Assembly: GCA_023138835.1 (NCBI GenBank)
Contig: JAGLOP010000012.1
Span: forward strand, 1-64,000
Length of the DNA: 64,000 bases
Direction: 5' to 3'
From: Arcobacteraceae bacterium
Lineage (GTDB): Bacteria > Campylobacterota > Campylobacteria > Campylobacterales > Arcobacteraceae
A program made the position numbers and the translations under genes. This document shows positions 3,876-61,860 of the stretch, in pieces (position 1 is the stretch's first letter; each line of letters starts with the position of its first letter). The notes under the pieces are model-generated. The model ran no database searches and was not told the origin of the DNA. It saw nothing but the letters and a program-made list of their open reading frames with translations.

Positions 3876-4505
3876 ATGATGAAACAAAGTGAAATTAACA
3901 ATGTAGAACAAATTTATAAAGACTCATCTGCTTTGCTTGAAGGGCATTTTAAATTAAGCAGTGGAAATCATTCACAATTTTATTTACAAAGTGCAAAAGT
4001 TTTAGAAGATCCTAAAACTGCAAAGTTATTAGCTGAAGAATTAGCAAAACAAATTAAAGAAAGTGGAATCCAAGTTGATGCAATTTGTTCTCCTGCTTTA
4101 GGTGGTTTAATCGCAGGGTTTGCACTGGCAACTGCACTTGATGTAAGATTTATTTTTGCAGAGAGAGTCGATGGTGTGATGTCAATCAGAAGAGGTTTTG
4201 AAGTACAAGAAGGTGAAAAGTATATAATCTGTGAAGATATTATTACAACTGCAGGAAGTGCTTTAGAAGCAGCAAAACAAGTCGAAAAAGATGGTGGAGA
4301 GATTGTTGCATTTGCAGCACTTGCAAATCGAGGATTTTGTTCAAGAGTTGGTAGCAACAGTGAACAAAAAGAAAATTGTAAGTTGCCAAAAGATATGCCG
4401 CTTTTTGCTTTAGATGATTTTACATTTGAAATGTATGACCCTGATAATTGTCCATTATGTAAAGATGGTTCAATTGCATATAAACCAGGTAGCCGAGGTA
4501 ACTAA
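3876..4505 (+). CDS. pyrE: Orotate phosphoribosyltransferase
   Basis: [16 protein letters not shown] and [20 protein letters not shown] motif. Confidence 0.93.
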
Positions 4506-12587: not shown

Positions 12588-12621
12588 ATTATATCTTAAC
12601 TCCGTCACAGTTTGCGTCACA
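12588..12621 (-). promoter_or_regulatory. TGTGAC-N6-TGTGAC-N10-TATAAT promoter, copy 1 (upstream of diguanylate cyclase)
   Basis: Minus strand reads TGTGACGCAAACTGTGACGGAGTTAAGATATAAT. Confidence 0.6.
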
Positions 12622-49626: not shown

Positions 49627-49660
49627 ATTGTATTATAGCTATGTCACAGTTTGCGTCACA
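49627..49660 (-). promoter_or_regulatory. TGTGAC-N6-TGTGAC-N10-TACAAT promoter, copy 2 (no ORF downstream)
   Basis: Minus strand TGTGACGCAAACTGTGACATAGCTATAATACAAT. Confidence 0.5.
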
Positions 49661-50783: not shown

Positions 50784-50927
50784 TAGGTGTATTCCTTAGG
50801 TGTTTTTGATGAGTTCTTAAATTAAGATTGTTTCCCTCAAACTATAATTGTGAAATCCTTTTATTTTAAAAATCTTTGTAAAAGCGTGAATTTCAGAAAG
50901 AATTACTATATTGCAAACTTGGTGATT

Positions 50928-51048
50928 TATAACGTCTAAATTGAAGGACGATGACCCCTCAATATATTTGCTGATTTCTTTTTATAACCACTATATTAAA
51001 GCTAATTTAGGCTTAAATACTCGCAAGGGTCACCCGTTCTCCTTCCAA
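50928..51048 (-). repeat. attC-like site A, larger part (interrupted by IS; remainder about 52425-52437)
   Basis: About 10 mismatches in about 121 nt to site B, identity stops at TTCCAA. Confidence 0.8.
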
Positions 51049-51113
51049 GTCGCCACCTTAAAATCTACTTAATTTCTTAATTATAACCAACTAAATATAA
51101 ATTAATTTATATT

Positions 51114-52139
51114 TTAAGCAACCAAGTCATTATTATCACTTTTATCTATATATTTACCACAAGCTTTTTCATAAGTTTCAGCATCATAAATACAATTATT
51201 TTTATAAAGTGAATGTGCGATTACTATTAATTTTCTCATTACTGCTATCTGTGCTACTGTTGAATGTTTACCATTATTTTTTAATCTATTATAAAAATAT
51301 TTCATTTGTTCATTATATTTTATTGCTACCATAGTAGCCATAAACAAACTTCCTCTATATAGTTTTATACCAGCTTTAGATATTCTTGGTTTGGATTTAA
51401 CGGATGTTCCTGAGTCTTTTATAATTGGGTCTAACCCAGTTAATGATACTATTTGATTTTTATTTGCATTGGGATAACTGATAAATAAATGCACTAGTAC
51501 AATACCTGCAATTTTACCAATACCTGGTATTGTTTGTATATTTTTATATGTAAGTGATAATTTATTATCTGCTTCAATAATCTCTTTTATTTTATCTAAG
51601 ACTTCAAGCTCTTTATTTTTAAATGATTTTAATCTCTTGCTTATATCTCTAAGCGTATATTTATTACCACCTTTACAATTTAATGCTTCATAGTGATTAC
51701 TTAGTGCTACTCTTTGTTTAACAGTAAACTTATAATAACTCATAAGCTCCTTTATAGTTTCAAGCGTATCATCTATTATAGGTACTCTTATCTCACCTTC
51801 TCTAGCTATTGCAATAGCCTTAGATAACATTATGGCATCAATTTTATCACTCTTGCTTCTATGTCCTAATGCTTTTGCAAAGTTACTTGATTGTTTGGGG
51901 TTTATTATAAAAGATTTTATATTTTTTGAAGCACAAAACTTTTTAGTTAAAAATGAATAACTACCAGTAGGCTCATAAACAAAAGTAAGTTTATCTAAAT
52001 CTTTTTTATACAACTTTTTTAACTTTGAATATAAAGCTTTTAAAGCTGTAATAGTGTTATCAATCTCTAAATCTAAAGAATTGATAGAGATATGAACCGA
52101 AATACTTGCTTTACTAATATCTAATCCGATAGAATACAT
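51114..52139 (-). CDS. IS110 family transposase (DEDD)
   Basis: SIGLDISKASISVHI, FVYEPTGSY, KSDKIDAIMLSKA, IPGIGKIAGIVL, GLDPIIKDSGTSVKSKPRISKAGIKLYR. Confidence 0.93.
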   Translation of the reverse strand: MYSIGLDISKASISVHISINSLDLEIDNTITALKALYSKLKKLYKKDLDKLTFVYEPTGSYSFLTKKFCASKNIKSFIINPKQSSNFAKALGHRSKSDKIDAIMLSKAIAIAREGEIRVPIIDDTLETIKELMSYYKFTVKQRVALSNHYEALNCKGGNKYTLRDISKRLKSFKNKELEVLDKIKEIIEADNKLSLTYKNIQTIPGIGKIAGIVLVHLFISYPNANKNQIVSLTGLDPIIKDSGTSVKSKPRISKAGIKLYRGSLFMATMVAIKYNEQMKYFYNRLKNNGKHSTVAQIAVMRKLIVIAHSLYKNNCIYDAETYEKACGKYIDKSDNNDLVA

Positions 52140-52424
52140 ACTTAGAACCTCACATATTAATTTATTTGAGAGTTCGTTAGGGTAAGAGTTTTACTCTTGC
52201 CTGATTTATAAAACAACGCTATACTTAATTTTACCTCATGATATTCAATCTAGCTTTCACCGATTCAGTCGCCACTCAAATTTTTAGTATAACTATCTGA
52301 CTTGGATTGAAACTAACTAGTTTTATTGTTTAAGAAAACTAGCCGTTTTACGTTTTGTCCGATATATTATATTCACTTACTCTGCTATTTATGATAGCTA
52401 AATTGCTATGTTGTTATTATATGA
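52140..52424 (-). ncRNA. Candidate bridge RNA region in IS110 5' non-coding end
   Basis: Long non-coding 5' end; CTAGTTTT...AAAACTAG hairpin (52317-52342); AGTCGCCAC shared with other IS end. Confidence 0.4.
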
Positions 52425-52505
52425 TGTTTTGTTAGTCTTTTGAGTTTAATTAATAATAAATGTTTATTTTTTCTTTCTCTCAATTCATCTATAATTCTAA
52501 TAGAA

Positions 52506-53312
52506 CTATTTATATTTAATTTTTTTTACATGATGAGTTGAATATAATGTTAACACTGTAAATACTAACCCTCCTAATAAATTTCCTAAAACAGTTGGTA
52601 TCTCATTCCAAAAAATATAATCTGATATAGTAAAGTTACCACCCATAATTATAGAAAATGGAAATAAAAACATATTAACTATAGAATGTTCAAATCCCAT
52701 AAAAAAGAATAACATTATTGGCATCCACATTACAACAATCTTTCCTGTAACAGACGTGGTCATTACAGAACCCACAATTCCTATTGAAACCATCCATCCA
52801 CATAACATTCCTCTAATCAATATAGTAAACCAACCAAAAATTCCATGTTCAGAATATCCAATAGTTCTACTTTCTCCAATTAATGCTATTTTATTCCCTA
52901 TTATGCCTGGATCTGTTTGATATCCGTATGTAAATACAAAAGAGATCATCAATGCAATAGTTAATGAACCTAGTAAGTTTCCTAAAAATACCAAACTCCA
53001 ATTTTTCATAAGAAGTTTTAATGTTACCCCTTTTCTTTTGTCCATTAATGCAAGAGGTATCAATACAAACACGCCAGTTAATAGATCAAACCCCATTAAA
53101 TATAATATTATAAATCCTACAGGAAACAAAATAGCTCCTAACAATGGTGAACCACTTGTAATACTAACAGTAATTGCAAAAACTGCTGATAATGCTAAAA
53201 TAGCACCAGCCATATATGATCTAATCAATGTATCTTGAACAGACATAAAAACCTTTGATTCTCCAGATTCTATCATTTTCCTAACAAAGTTTTTTGGCTT
53301 TTTATAAGACAA
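52506..53312 (-). CDS. Formate/nitrite transporter family protein (cassette)
   Basis: FNT-like six-TM topology; MGFEHSIVNMFLFP, WNEIPTVLGNLLGGLVF. Confidence 0.9.
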   Translation of the reverse strand: MSYKKPKNFVRKMIESGESKVFMSVQDTLIRSYMAGAILALSAVFAITVSITSGSPLLGAILFPVGFIILYLMGFDLLTGVFVLIPLALMDKRKGVTLKLLMKNWSLVFLGNLLGSLTIALMISFVFTYGYQTDPGIIGNKIALIGESRTIGYSEHGIFGWFTILIRGMLCGWMVSIGIVGSVMTTSVTGKIVVMWMPIMLFFFMGFEHSIVNMFLFPFSIIMGGNFTISDYIFWNEIPTVLGNLLGGLVFTVLTLYSTHHVKKIKYK

Positions 53313-53383
53313 TGTTAACTCCTAATATCTTTTAAACTTTTTTAACACTTTCATTATATCTTTTTTCAAAATCACTTAGCTTA

Positions 53384-53517
53384 GACTAACGTCTAAATTG
53401 AAGGACGAGTGGATAAAATGGCTTTAAAATTCGGTCTTTTAGATTTCTTTATGCGAAACTTAAAAGCTTGAATTATCGGCACATTACACTCGTTCTTCTT
53501 CCAATGTTTTGTTATCA
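53384..53517 (-). repeat. attC-like site C
   Basis: TAACGTCTAAATTGAAGGACGAGTG ... CACTCGTTCTTCTTCCAATGTTTTGTTA imperfect inverted repeat. Confidence 0.8.
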
Positions 53518-54133: not shown

Positions 54134-54269
54134 TGATAACGGCTGAATTGAAGGACGATGACCCCTCAATATATTTGCTGACTTCTTTTTATAACCATTA
54201 TATCAAAGCCAATTTAGGCTTAAATACTCGCAGGGGTCACTCGTTCTTCTTCCAATGATTTGTTATATC
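54134..54269 (-). repeat. attC-like site B
   Basis: GATAACGGCTGAATTGAAGGACGA...TCGTTCTTCTTCCAATGATTTGTTATAT. Confidence 0.85.
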
Positions 54270-55861: not shown

Positions 55862-55895
55862 ATATTAACAAAAAGATGTCACAGATTGCGTCACA
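55862..55895 (-). promoter_or_regulatory. TGTGAC-N6-TGTGAC-N10-TAATAT promoter, copy 3 (inside a cassette)
   Basis: Minus strand TGTGACGCAATCTGTGACATCTTTTTGTTAATAT. Confidence 0.55.
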
Positions 55896-55920: not shown

Positions 55921-56057
55921 GATATAACGTTTGAGTTGAGAAACAAGTGTGGCTTCACAACTTAAAAATTATAATTTCTTTCAACTTTATTTAGGCTTGG
56001 AAATTAGCTATTTAAGTCGTAGGAACACTTGTTTCTCTCTCCAACGATTTGTTGTAT
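55921..56057 (-). repeat. attC-like site D
   Basis: ATATAACGTTTGAGTTGAGAAACAAGTGT...ACACTTGTTTCTCTCTCCAACGATTTGTTGTAT. Confidence 0.85.
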
Positions 56058-56563: not shown

Positions 56564-56620
56564 GATACAACGACTGACTTCACCGACAGGTTGCCTGTTC
56601 GGTGCTAGGTCTTGTTATAT
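56564..56620 (-). repeat. Short attC-like site E
   Basis: CAACGACTGACTT CACCGACAGG-TTG-CCTGTTCGGTG CTAGGTCTTGTTATA; stem with one extrahelical T. Confidence 0.85.
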
Positions 56621-56633
56621 GTTGTTCCTTATA

Positions 56634-59600
56634 TTAGTTAAGTTCACTTGTTAAATCTTGTCTTTTTCCATCTTTTTCATAGTTCTCTGATAGTTGAATC
56701 AATAGTGATGCAACTTTTGAATGAGTATATTTTAACTTATTAGCATCTTTTCTATATACTTCTGATAATGTATATTCTTGTTTGCCACCATCATCATAAG
56801 CTCTAGTGGTAATACCTCTTAAATTTTGTTTTGCAATTAAAAATGCTGTATCTATAGTCTCATTTGAGATTTCATTTAATACATCTCTGGTTACTTCACA
56901 AGGGAAAATACCATCGTTTCCTATTGGAGACTTAGCTAAAAGTTTGCCAATTCTATCATCACCTATATTTGTTCTATCTACATTATCAAACATTTGTCTA
57001 GCTTCAAAAATCCAAGCTTTTAATTTTTCACTGTTTAGTTCATCAACATCATCATATTTATAGAATAATGATATTTTGTCTAATAAGTAATAAGCATTAC
57101 TAGCCCTATTACTTATTTGTTCTTCTGTCAATCCTTCATCTTCATCTCTTTTTTTATTTGGCTTATATGCAAAAGACACTAGTTGAACAAAAGTTTTAGG
57201 ATTAGTAATAATATCTTTTTCCCAATGTATAGGTTTGAATTGATTTAATTTTAAATACTTCCATTCTAACATTTGTATTTTAGTAAATTCTAAATCAGAA
57301 GATTGTAAAAACTTTATAATCTCAGAAATAGAACGAGAATCTAATTTTTCTTCATTTGGTTCTATTTCTATTAAAACTTTAGCTAGTAAATTTATATCAA
57401 GATTTAATTCATGTTTTTTCATCATATAAAATAAATTACTAATAAAACTTACTGCTTTCATATATTGTTTATATTTAACAAATTGCTCTATAATCCAATT
57501 AATATATGAAATATCTTTATCATCAACTCTATAATAATGATTGTTTATATTTCCCCAATATAACTTTTGTATATTTTTATTTTGCTCTTTTAATATTTCA
57601 AAAAGTATAGAATTAAACCTAAGTGATAATAAAACCTCTGATACTTGCTTGTCATTTATGTTATTTAATATTGATTTATCAAAAGGCATATTAGATATAT
57701 AACTTTTAGCACAAACTAGAAGATTAAGTTCTTCACTATTTAACCATTCAAATATCTCATTTTGATATTTATTATCAGTTGTTAAATATAATAATCGTCC
57801 TATCTCTCCAGCATATTCTATTTTTTGAATTAACAGTACTAATGAACTAAATCCATCATTTTCGATTATTTCAATAATTGCTTTCTTTCTTAACTCCAGA
57901 ACCAATTCATCATCTTTTTTATAAGACTTTACATCTTCTGATTTATAAGGTATAGGGTTTAATATATCAATACTTCCCATATTAAATAAATAAAAATATT
58001 TATCTATTAAAATATTAGGCTCTATAAAATCAAAAGCCACTTCTAGTTTATCAATTAATTCTTTTGGTAAAGACCAATCAGAATCAGAAAATTTCCTATG
58101 ACTATGTATCTTATCCCTAAGTATAGTTGATATTGATAATTTAATTTTATCATCAAATAAATTTATATCTAAGGAGATAAAAGTATTTATTATTTTAGTA
58201 TAACTATCTTTATAAAATTTATCAATATTATTAAATATATCATACCACTTTTGAGTATCTGTACCAATATTATCTAAAAGTAAATTATTAATATTTTGAT
58301 AATATAAAAATGAATCTTGCTGACTTACATCTTTTCCAATTAATTCATCCCAATCATGATATTTTGGTCTTACTATTCCTGATGTTATCATATGACTATC
58401 AGGTAAAAGTTCTAGCAATAATCTCCATGTAATATCAGGATATTTTTTAAATAAAGTATGCTCTAAAATTTGTATTTTATTTTCATAAGTTACACTACTA
58501 TAGTTAACCCAGCCTAAAAAAATATCTTTTAATGTATTAAAAGGTTGATTTCCCATATTACTTTTAATTTCTAATTTACTTAACTCTGCTAATACTAATA
58601 CAACACGAGGTAATAATTCATGATTCCAAGATATCCTCTCTAGTGCCCAAAGTAAATTACAATGAAAACATCCTCCCATATCTCCTGCATCTTCAAAAAG
58701 TTCTTGTATTTTTGTAGTAGATTGATTCTCTAATGTTTTTTCTAAAGCAGTTAAAAAACTAATTGGACTTGCTTCTGATAAAAGAGATATTTGACTTCCA
58801 TAAGAGTACCAAGCTTCAACATTTAAGTTTGTTTCAAAAAGTTCTTTTAACCAATATGTAATAGTGATATTTATATCTGATGAATATGTCATATTCTCTT
58901 TTCCAAAAACAGAAATTAAAACTAATGTATCAGCTATACTTTCACGAATAGAACCTGAGTATTTTATCTCTTTATCATATGAAAACCATCTTTCATTAGC
59001 TGTTATATTCCAAGTTGGATCTATTTCTTTAAATATATCAAGTAAAATAGGTTTTAATTTATCAATTTGTGTGATAGATATTTTATGAGAAATTAAATCC
59101 CATAAATTGATTTTTGAAATTACTTGCCATACATTACCAACTAATCTTATTGGTGTGTTTTGTTCTTCTTTTAATAAAGTGAGATTTTTTTCAAATTCAT
59201 CATAGGATAATTCAGATAGTGTTTCAATAATTTTTATATCATCTTTATCTAAACGATACCAACTATTAATAAATAGAATTGTTGATAAGATATTTATATC
59301 ATAGTGATTTACCCAATCAGGGATAACTCTTTCATTTGGTTTTAATAAAGGGTGTCTAATTATAGCATGTAAAAAACCTTTAGTTTCATCATATATCTTC
59401 CAAGCATCATCATGACTAAATCCCATTTCTTCTAAAGTAGCGACCTTTTGACTTTTTTTAATTTTTAATAATTTTACAATTTTATGTGATTTATCTTGCA
59501 TACCTATTGTATCTTTAGCTTCTATAACAAAGTGACCATTAGATATTGCTGTACCAATATTATTGGGAATAAAATCTTTATAAATAAGTATTAAGTTAGA

Positions 59601-60362
59601 ATCACTTTGAACTAATTCATCCCAAGACTCTTGGCTTGTAACTATAATAACTTTAGATGAAAATTGAATCTTATCTTTTAAAGATGCCAAAATAAAATCA
59701 TAACTTTCTTGTTTAGTTGTTGATACAATTATGATTTTAGATGGTTTTTTATTTAATAAATCTAATAATCTAGTTATTTCATTTTCTCTTGATTTTAATA
59801 CTAAATTTGTACTAAGATTTATATTGGTTTGAGAAGACCAGTTTTCAAAAGATTGTTCTATGTCAAAACTATTTAAAGGTCGCTTACCTATAATCCTTGC
59901 AAACCATCCATGAACAGCAGGAGTTAAAGTAAGCCATAGTTCTAAATCATCAGAATTTATACCTTTAACTTCTTTCCACTTTAATTCTTTATTTTTTTCA
60001 TTTTCAAAATCATTTTTTTTAGCCCATGTTTTTGTTGTAGCAAATATGTATGAAAGATTTTTATCAGATGAATTATCAGTTCTTTTTTTATAATCATCTT
60101 CTGCTTTTTTGTTAATATTTACATTTGTTCCAAATTCCCAAACAGATTTACCATCTGGTATAAAAGAATTACCTTTTTTTACTGTTAAAACACCATCCCA
60201 ACCACCGGTTAATATACTATCACCTGATGGAATATGTATATACTTTGGTTCAACTGTTGCCATTATTAATTTTTTAATTAATAGAGGTAATATTTCTTGA
60301 GACTCTCTCGTGTGTGATGAACTCCATTTGTCAATTTCATTTGATGTAACATGCCAACTCAT
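56634..60362 (-). CDS. Very large cassette protein: PD-(D/E)XK-like N-terminus + degenerate NTPase/STAND-like + helical repeats (candidate defence protein)
   Basis: 1242-aa ORF; GGWDG...SFIPDGKSVWEFGTN...KAEDDYKKR nuclease-like pattern; long helical C-terminus. Confidence 0.6.
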   Translation of the reverse strand: MSWHVTSNEIDKWSSSHTRESQEILPLLIKKLIMATVEPKYIHIPSGDSILTGGWDGVLTVKKGNSFIPDGKSVWEFGTNVNINKKAEDDYKKRTDNSSDKNLSYIFATTKTWAKKNDFENEKNKELKWKEVKGINSDDLELWLTLTPAVHGWFARIIGKRPLNSFDIEQSFENWSSQTNINLSTNLVLKSRENEITRLLDLLNKKPSKIIIVSTTKQESYDFILASLKDKIQFSSKVIIVTSQESWDELVQSDSNLILIYKDFIPNNIGTAISNGHFVIEAKDTIGMQDKSHKIVKLLKIKKSQKVATLEEMGFSHDDAWKIYDETKGFLHAIIRHPLLKPNERVIPDWVNHYDINILSTILFINSWYRLDKDDIKIIETLSELSYDEFEKNLTLLKEEQNTPIRLVGNVWQVISKINLWDLISHKISITQIDKLKPILLDIFKEIDPTWNITANERWFSYDKEIKYSGSIRESIADTLVLISVFGKENMTYSSDINITITYWLKELFETNLNVEAWYSYGSQISLLSEASPISFLTALEKTLENQSTTKIQELFEDAGDMGGCFHCNLLWALERISWNHELLPRVVLVLAELSKLEIKSNMGNQPFNTLKDIFLGWVNYSSVTYENKIQILEHTLFKKYPDITWRLLLELLPDSHMITSGIVRPKYHDWDELIGKDVSQQDSFLYYQNINNLLLDNIGTDTQKWYDIFNNIDKFYKDSYTKIINTFISLDINLFDDKIKLSISTILRDKIHSHRKFSDSDWSLPKELIDKLEVAFDFIEPNILIDKYFYLFNMGSIDILNPIPYKSEDVKSYKKDDELVLELRKKAIIEIIENDGFSSLVLLIQKIEYAGEIGRLLYLTTDNKYQNEIFEWLNSEELNLLVCAKSYISNMPFDKSILNNINDKQVSEVLLSLRFNSILFEILKEQNKNIQKLYWGNINNHYYRVDDKDISYINWIIEQFVKYKQYMKAVSFISNLFYMMKKHELNLDINLLAKVLIEIEPNEEKLDSRSISEIIKFLQSSDLEFTKIQMLEWKYLKLNQFKPIHWEKDIITNPKTFVQLVSFAYKPNKKRDEDEGLTEEQISNRASNAYYLLDKISLFYKYDDVDELNSEKLKAWIFEARQMFDNVDRTNIGDDRIGKLLAKSPIGNDGIFPCEVTRDVLNEISNETIDTAFLIAKQNLRGITTRAYDDGGKQEYTLSEVYRKDANKLKYTHSKVASLLIQLSENYEKDGKRQDLTSELN

Positions 60363-60382
60363 TTATTACCTTTTTCTATTCA

Positions 60383-60514
60383 TATAACGACTGAAGTGAG
60401 GAACACGGCGATTTAACGGCTTGATAGTTTGCTATTTTAAATATCTTTATGCGACACTTAAAAGCTTGAATTATTGCCGTTGTAGCCTTGTTTCTCCTCC
60501 TCTGTTTTGCTATA
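60383..60514 (-). repeat. attC-like site F
   Basis: ATATAACGACTGAAGTGAGGAACA...TTGTTTCTCCTCCTCTGTTTTGCTATA. Confidence 0.75.
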
Positions 60515-60785
60515 CAATTTCTTTTATTTTAACAGTTTTAATAAAACAAGATTCCATTTTAAATATAGATTCTAAATTGTTAAGAAGGTCTTTTTGTTTA
60601 AGTTCTGATTCAATAGTTATAATATTATTATTTTCTGTTGCTTCTGTAACTTTATGATTTAAATTTATTTCTGCTACAAGTTTTAATAAGTTTTGTGCAT
60701 ATGTTTCATCATCATAATCAGGGTAAGGACAATCTCTACTAAGGTCTTTTTCTTCTACTTTTCTAACATAAATTTGGTATTTCAT
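60510..60785 (-). CDS. Hypothetical 91-aa protein (cassette)
   Basis: ORF; stop codon lies inside attC F. Confidence 0.6.
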   Translation of the reverse strand: MKYQIYVRKVEEKDLSRDCPYPDYDDETYAQNLLKLVAEINLNHKVTEATENNNIITIESELKQKDLLNNLESIFKMESCFIKTVKIKEIV

Positions 60786-60799
60786 TTATTCTCCATTTT

Positions 60800-60934
60800 G
60801 TATAACACTTGACTTGAGGAACAAGTGGCTGAAACGCCTTGAAACTCTAATCTTTAAAGTCTATCTAATCGACACTTAAAAGCTTAGAATTTCCGCACTT
60901 TACACTTGTTTCTCCTCTTAGGATTTGTTAGTCT
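60800..60934 (-). repeat. attC-like site G
   Basis: TATAACACTTGACTTGAGGAACAAGTG...CACTTGTTTCTCCTCTTAGGATTTGTTA. Confidence 0.85.
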
Positions 60935-61826: not shown

Positions 61827-61860
61827 ATTATATTGTAACTGCGTCACAGTTAGCGTCACA
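61827..61860 (-). promoter_or_regulatory. TGTGAC-N6-TGTGAC-N10-TATAAT promoter, copy 4 (upstream of DUF805 gene)
   Basis: Minus strand TGTGACGCTAACTGTGACGCAGTTACAATATAAT. Confidence 0.6.

Follow-up and report, generated by a model that had tools for sequence, protein, structure and literature searches.

IS1111 elements are well known to target attC sites (PMC11187229, PMC11616780), and the guide order of IS1111 elements is reversed relative to that of IS110 elements (PMC11187229). We analysed a 64,000-nt stretch of an Arcobacteraceae genome, here called the window, and found an insertion sequence (IS) located precisely within an attC site. The evidence, which is computational throughout, led us to conclude with a probability of about 0.88 that this IS110-group element entered the attC site by bridge-RNA-guided recombination. 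In the literature that we searched, we found no report of attC targeting by IS110-group elements with a left-end bridge RNA, nor in Campylobacterota; because the scope of this search was limited, with subscription papers and preprints mostly outside it, we do not claim priority.

The element comprises 1,376 bp on the minus strand (51049..52424, or 51048-52423 when the core dinucleotide is counted as target), and its junction with the target has a one-base ambiguity because a common T/A fits either side. Its transposase carries the domains of the IS110 family of DEDD recombinases above the Pfam cut-offs (PF01548, DEDD_Tnp_IS110, 3.4e-16; PF02371, Transposase_20, 1.2e-14) and aligns to the structures of IS621 (7e-22) and ISCro4 (9e-21), with a homology that spans the catalytic E, D/D and SG regions. 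The motifs of the left and right ends are kept in relatives. Across the 28 contigs (2.1 Mb) of the host draft genome, no second copy of the element and no other IS110-family gene was detected. Searches of a plasmid collection for transposase relatives at 1e-40 and of viral contigs for relatives were negative, and an Rfam scan of the region yielded nothing useful.

The attC site that holds the element, site A, is 93% identical to site B over 120 nt (50929-51048 compared with 54136-54255), and this likeness ends at 51048, as noticed in the first-pass annotation of the window. When the element is removed, the flanks join precisely and without a target duplication, as expected for the IS110 family, and yield a 135-bp site that has the length of site B and agrees with it at 121 of 135 aligned positions, compared with 77 of 135 for site C. 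The earlier proposal of an IS110-family element whose excision rebuilds the site was thereby confirmed. Independent confirmation comes from the chaining of cassette boundaries: the R'' of site A (AGACTAAC, plus strand, adjoining the right end of the element) matches the R' of site C (GTTAGTCT) at 8 of 8 positions. A search of relatives for an empty version of this cassette's site was negative.

In cassette arrays built by an integron integrase, the R'' of each attC has the reverse-complement sequence of the R' that precedes it in the array. The window contains an array of seven attC sites on the minus strand, running from 60933 down to 50927 with site A as the last (Table 1). From the array start downward, the R'/R'' pairs are GTTATAC/GTATAGC (one mismatch), GTTATAT/ATATAAC, GTTGTAT/ATACAAC, GTTATAT/ATATAAC, GTTATCA/TGATAAC and, at site A, GTTAGTC/GACTAAC. 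Because the R'/R'' boundaries chain correctly through the whole array, site A is a true attC; the R'', L'', L' and R' boxes, the palindromic fold and the inter-cassette chain were all found. The chain and stricter patterns were used because a loose attC scanner, which produced 9.5 hits per 19 kb in shuffled sequence at a threshold of 13, was too noisy alone.

Table 1. Features of the cassette array and of the inserted element (positions within the window)
Feature	Position	Strand	Basis or remark
attC nearest the array start	60800..60933	-	sequence
attC with degenerate R'' (GTATAGC)	60382..60515	-	sequence
Short attC, TAGCA-type L''	56565..56620	-	
Intact attC	55922..56057	-	holds a perfect guide-type target, ACAAATCGTTGGA
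attC site B, intact	54134..54268	-	
attC site C, intact	53384..53517	-	
Formate/nitrite transporter cassette	52438..53383	-	gene 52506-53312, PF01226 3.6e-60; own attC split by the IS
attC site A, R'' part (GACTAAC and spacer)	52425..52437	-	severed from the rest by the IS; chain rule
Left-end non-coding region with predicted bridge RNA	52144..52423	-	consensus fold
Left target guide (LTG), GACAAAACGT	52350..52359	-	target AACAAAACAT
Right target guide (RTG), CAATCCAAG	52301..52309	-	pairing partner CTTGGA in the right target
Left donor guide (LDG), GTGGCGACT	52267..52275	-	same sequence as the element's right end
Putative right donor guide (RDG), ATCATGAG	52235..52242	-	pairs with core CT and left-end CAT; alignment inspection
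IS110 transposase/bridge recombinase gene	51114..52139	-	intact, encodes 341 aa with DEDD and SG motifs
attC site A, L''-central-L'-R' part	50927..51048	-	R' GTTATAA

An integron integrase matching TIGR02249 was not found in the host draft genome (86.6% complete), neither beside the array, where a complete integron would carry it, nor elsewhere, and the array is therefore integrase-less as far as the assembly shows. Hits to the IntI1 profile NF011946 were rejected as integrase candidates, being only generic tyrosine recombinases. A second integrase-less attC array of at least four sites lies at 207.6-211.9 kb of another contig (G000:C12:207654-211833). The transporter gene of the cassette adjoining the element has a 92% identical copy at G000:C22:73148-73963, perhaps the source of the cassette, and the array gene at 56634-60362 is unusually large (1,242 aa). 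A direct repeat of the GTCACAG type, TGTCACAGNTTGCGTCACA, occurs four times in the 64 kb (expected 0.01), at 12603-12621, 49642-49660, 55877-55895 and 61842-61860, with three copies in or beside the cassette region.

An IS1111-attC element of the ISKpn4/ISPst6/ISPa21 type that reached Campylobacterota would belong to the same broad family and would share the attC target, a similar transposase length (341 aa) and the GL-P----SG motif. The first-pass annotation had suggested a Campylobacterota case of IS1111-attC. However, the long non-coding region (285 nt) lies upstream of the transposase gene, as in the IS110 group, instead of downstream, where the right end is short (about 65 nt). The longest inverted match found in a search for the subterminal inverted repeats of IS1111 elements (7-17 bp) was 7 nt (AATATAA, located 52 nt inside the left end), a length reached by 250 of 500 shuffles and thus at chance level. 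The guides also follow the IS110 order, with the bottom-strand match (LTG 52359-52350) located 5' of the top-strand match (RTG 52309-52301), and a two-loop bridge RNA with target and donor guides, itself an IS110-group character, is predicted in the left end. The closest relatives are all elements of Campylobacterota, most of which have other targets. Because of the upstream non-coding region, the guide order and the lack of a subterminal repeat beyond chance, we assign the element to the IS110 group; an IS1111 origin is very unlikely, and that part of the annotation had to be abandoned.

A consensus fold calculated from 12 aligned left ends of relatives contains 48 pairs, of which 20 show compensatory changes, and places the guides opposite each other in two internal loops. 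In this model, the non-coding end is predicted to fold as a two-loop bridge RNA; the stability of the single-sequence fold was no better than that of shuffles (z -0.21). At fixed anchors, the LTG is the 10-nt stretch that follows ATCG and equals the left flank, for example GACAAATCGT compared with AACAAATCGT in L058 and GACAAAACCT compared with AACAAAACCT in L039, and the RTG is the stretch that ends in AG and whose reverse complement is the right flank (CTTGGA). The left guide of the window element has one mismatch to its target, a G facing an A at the first base of the core.

The matches between guides and DNA were far above those of shuffled pairings for right guides and their own right flanks (77.8 of 95 for 19 distinct guides of the family; shuffled mean 31, maximum 56 in 20,000) and above them for left guides and left flanks (84 for 13 left guides; shuffled mean 55.8, maximum 78). 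These counts overstate independence, because the table was compiled by hand at anchored positions for elements that are related to one another, but the effect is still large. The left donor guide agreed with the element's right end at 39 of 42 variable positions (shuffled mean 25.8, maximum 38). Within the attC clade alone, the covariation of left guides was not significant (observed 38, best permutation 40). A natural compensatory case is provided by L055, in which the right guide is TGCTAG, the right flank is CTAGCA and the site is still an attC. Perfect copies of the guide-type target ACAAAWCNTTGGA are present at four places in the 2.1-Mb host genome, each of which is an attC site.

Relatives were collected by the transposase at 1e-30, which gave 18 of 397 genomes of the phylum, and further ones came from genome contigs and from searches of the family and the order. 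The clade of the element (66-90% identity in matched stretches) provided ten insertion sites, distributed over eight genomes: the window, L058, L047, L059, L039, L040, L041, L063, L055 and L057, with L047 and L059 in one genome and L041 being the same record as L072. All ten insertions share one nucleotide position and one orientation within attC, several of them being readable at one side only, and none is elsewhere, which supports specific targeting well. Readable left flanks consist of TAAC and 7 nt before the element, and readable right flanks start with an L'' (TTGGA, TTGTA or TAGCA). Beyond the insertion, the R' is full in five cases, degenerate in two (L040, L059) An incidental insertion by a low-specificity IS into dispensable, AT-rich arrays would agree with the tolerance of cassette arrays for insertions and with the single copy in the host genome, but the constant attC position and orientation and the excess of guide/flank matches over shuffles make it extremely unlikely.

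More distant relatives have different guides and are inserted at matching different sites. One large branch (L013, L028, L034, L037, L038, L043, L060, L019) has guides for sites of the N-TCACCT/GACCCC type or the TTTAGCCC/GACCCC type, possibly the ends of another repeat, and six elements of one genus (L015, L017, L029, L035, L070, L071) have a common right guide, GATGGCGAG, with flanks that begin with CTCG or CTCA. The right guides of L014 and L074 (the same element as L042) do not match their right flanks, possibly reflecting misassigned ends or later rearrangement. In the right flank of L041 (about 4090-4120), a second IS110-type right end (GGTGGAAACT, other strand) abuts the L'' of the same attC, which suggests that a further element inserted beside the first.

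Two elements from a different branch of this family, L049 and L064, have guides for the opposite arm of attC, in the other strand. In the tree, L049 lies outside the attC clade (clade support 100/99) and groups elsewhere (99/95); L064 is a fragment that was left out of the tree and was assigned to the branch from its guides and left end. Their left guides (GATAACGGCT for L049, GATAACGGTT for L064) and the reverse complement of the right guide (CTGAAT) equal the plus strand of site B (TGATAACGGCTGAATTG), and their left flanks are TATAACGACT and CATAACGACT, respectively. The combined flanks of L049 give an attC-like fold whose far end carries GTTATAC, and the boundary of L064 has a 7/7 chain partner in an intact adjacent attC. 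The integron integrase was not found in either draft genome, and the opposite-arm claim is less certain because of this and because only two copies are known.

We consider it fairly probable that bridge-RNA elements of the IS110 group in Campylobacterota acquired attC targeting at least twice and independently of IS1111-attC, in one clade for the R''-L'' arm with TTGGA and TAGCA guide variants and in another for the L'-R' arm in the opposite orientation (L049/L064), making attC a recurrent natural destination of RNA-guided recombinases. That the IS reads a short duplex sequence which attC happens to carry, independent of attC folding or integrons, is a rather doubtful reading and a refinement of the bridge-RNA mechanism rather than an alternative to it. 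It would suit a bridge RNA that reads about 14 bp of duplex DNA and does not require the folded attC hairpin, but the guides follow two variants of the attC L'' (TTGGA, TAGCA) as well as two arms, and the clade hosts mostly have integrases, which suggests selection for attC as the target.

For the preferred bridge-RNA-guided entry, we infer that the left-end RNA is expressed and that the element circularises, with the predicted junction GGTGGCGACT-CATATAAT. The left end has a perfect TATAAT, but no good -35 was seen, and a junction promoter in the circle is not claimed. The target loop of the RNA would pair with the R''-spacer-L'' segment of attC, the left guide with the bottom strand of ACAAA-C-T and the right guide with the top strand of CTTGGA, and the donor loop would pair with the joined circle ends (GTGGCGACT followed by CAT). 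The recombinase would then catalyse strand exchange at the core dinucleotide without a target duplication. With R'' and L'' separated by the insertion, the site should no longer fold well as an attC and would presumably lose its function, and the nitrite-transporter cassette should be fixed in place.

The case shows how elements of this kind can home in on, and probably lock, integron cassettes. RNA-guided elements here attack integrons beyond the clinical classes, probably freezing their cassettes. They also offer a natural series of bridge RNAs re-aimed at the arms and types of one functional DNA site, which helps to learn the rules of guides. The idea that attC became a convergent target owing to the many near-identical, dispensable landing sites in arrays can now be tested.

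The two-loop guide layout predicted for the element is the bridge RNA architecture described in PMC11208160. Like IS621 (PMC11208160) and ISEc21 (PMC11187229), the element has its non-coding region upstream of the transposase gene, an LTG followed by an RTG, a separate donor loop and an NT/CT core; however, REP elements are the target of IS621 and an IS3-family transposase gene is that of ISEc21, whereas the present element targets attC. According to PMC11187229 and PMC11616780, the IS1111-attC group (ISKpn4, ISPst6, ISPa25, ISPa21) shares with it the DEDD recombinase, the guide RNA, the use of one attC end, the fixed orientation and the lack of a target duplication. That group differs in its downstream non-coding region, its subterminal inverted repeats and its reversed guide order, and the examples considered here come from Proteobacterial integrons, whereas the present element resides in Campylobacterota.
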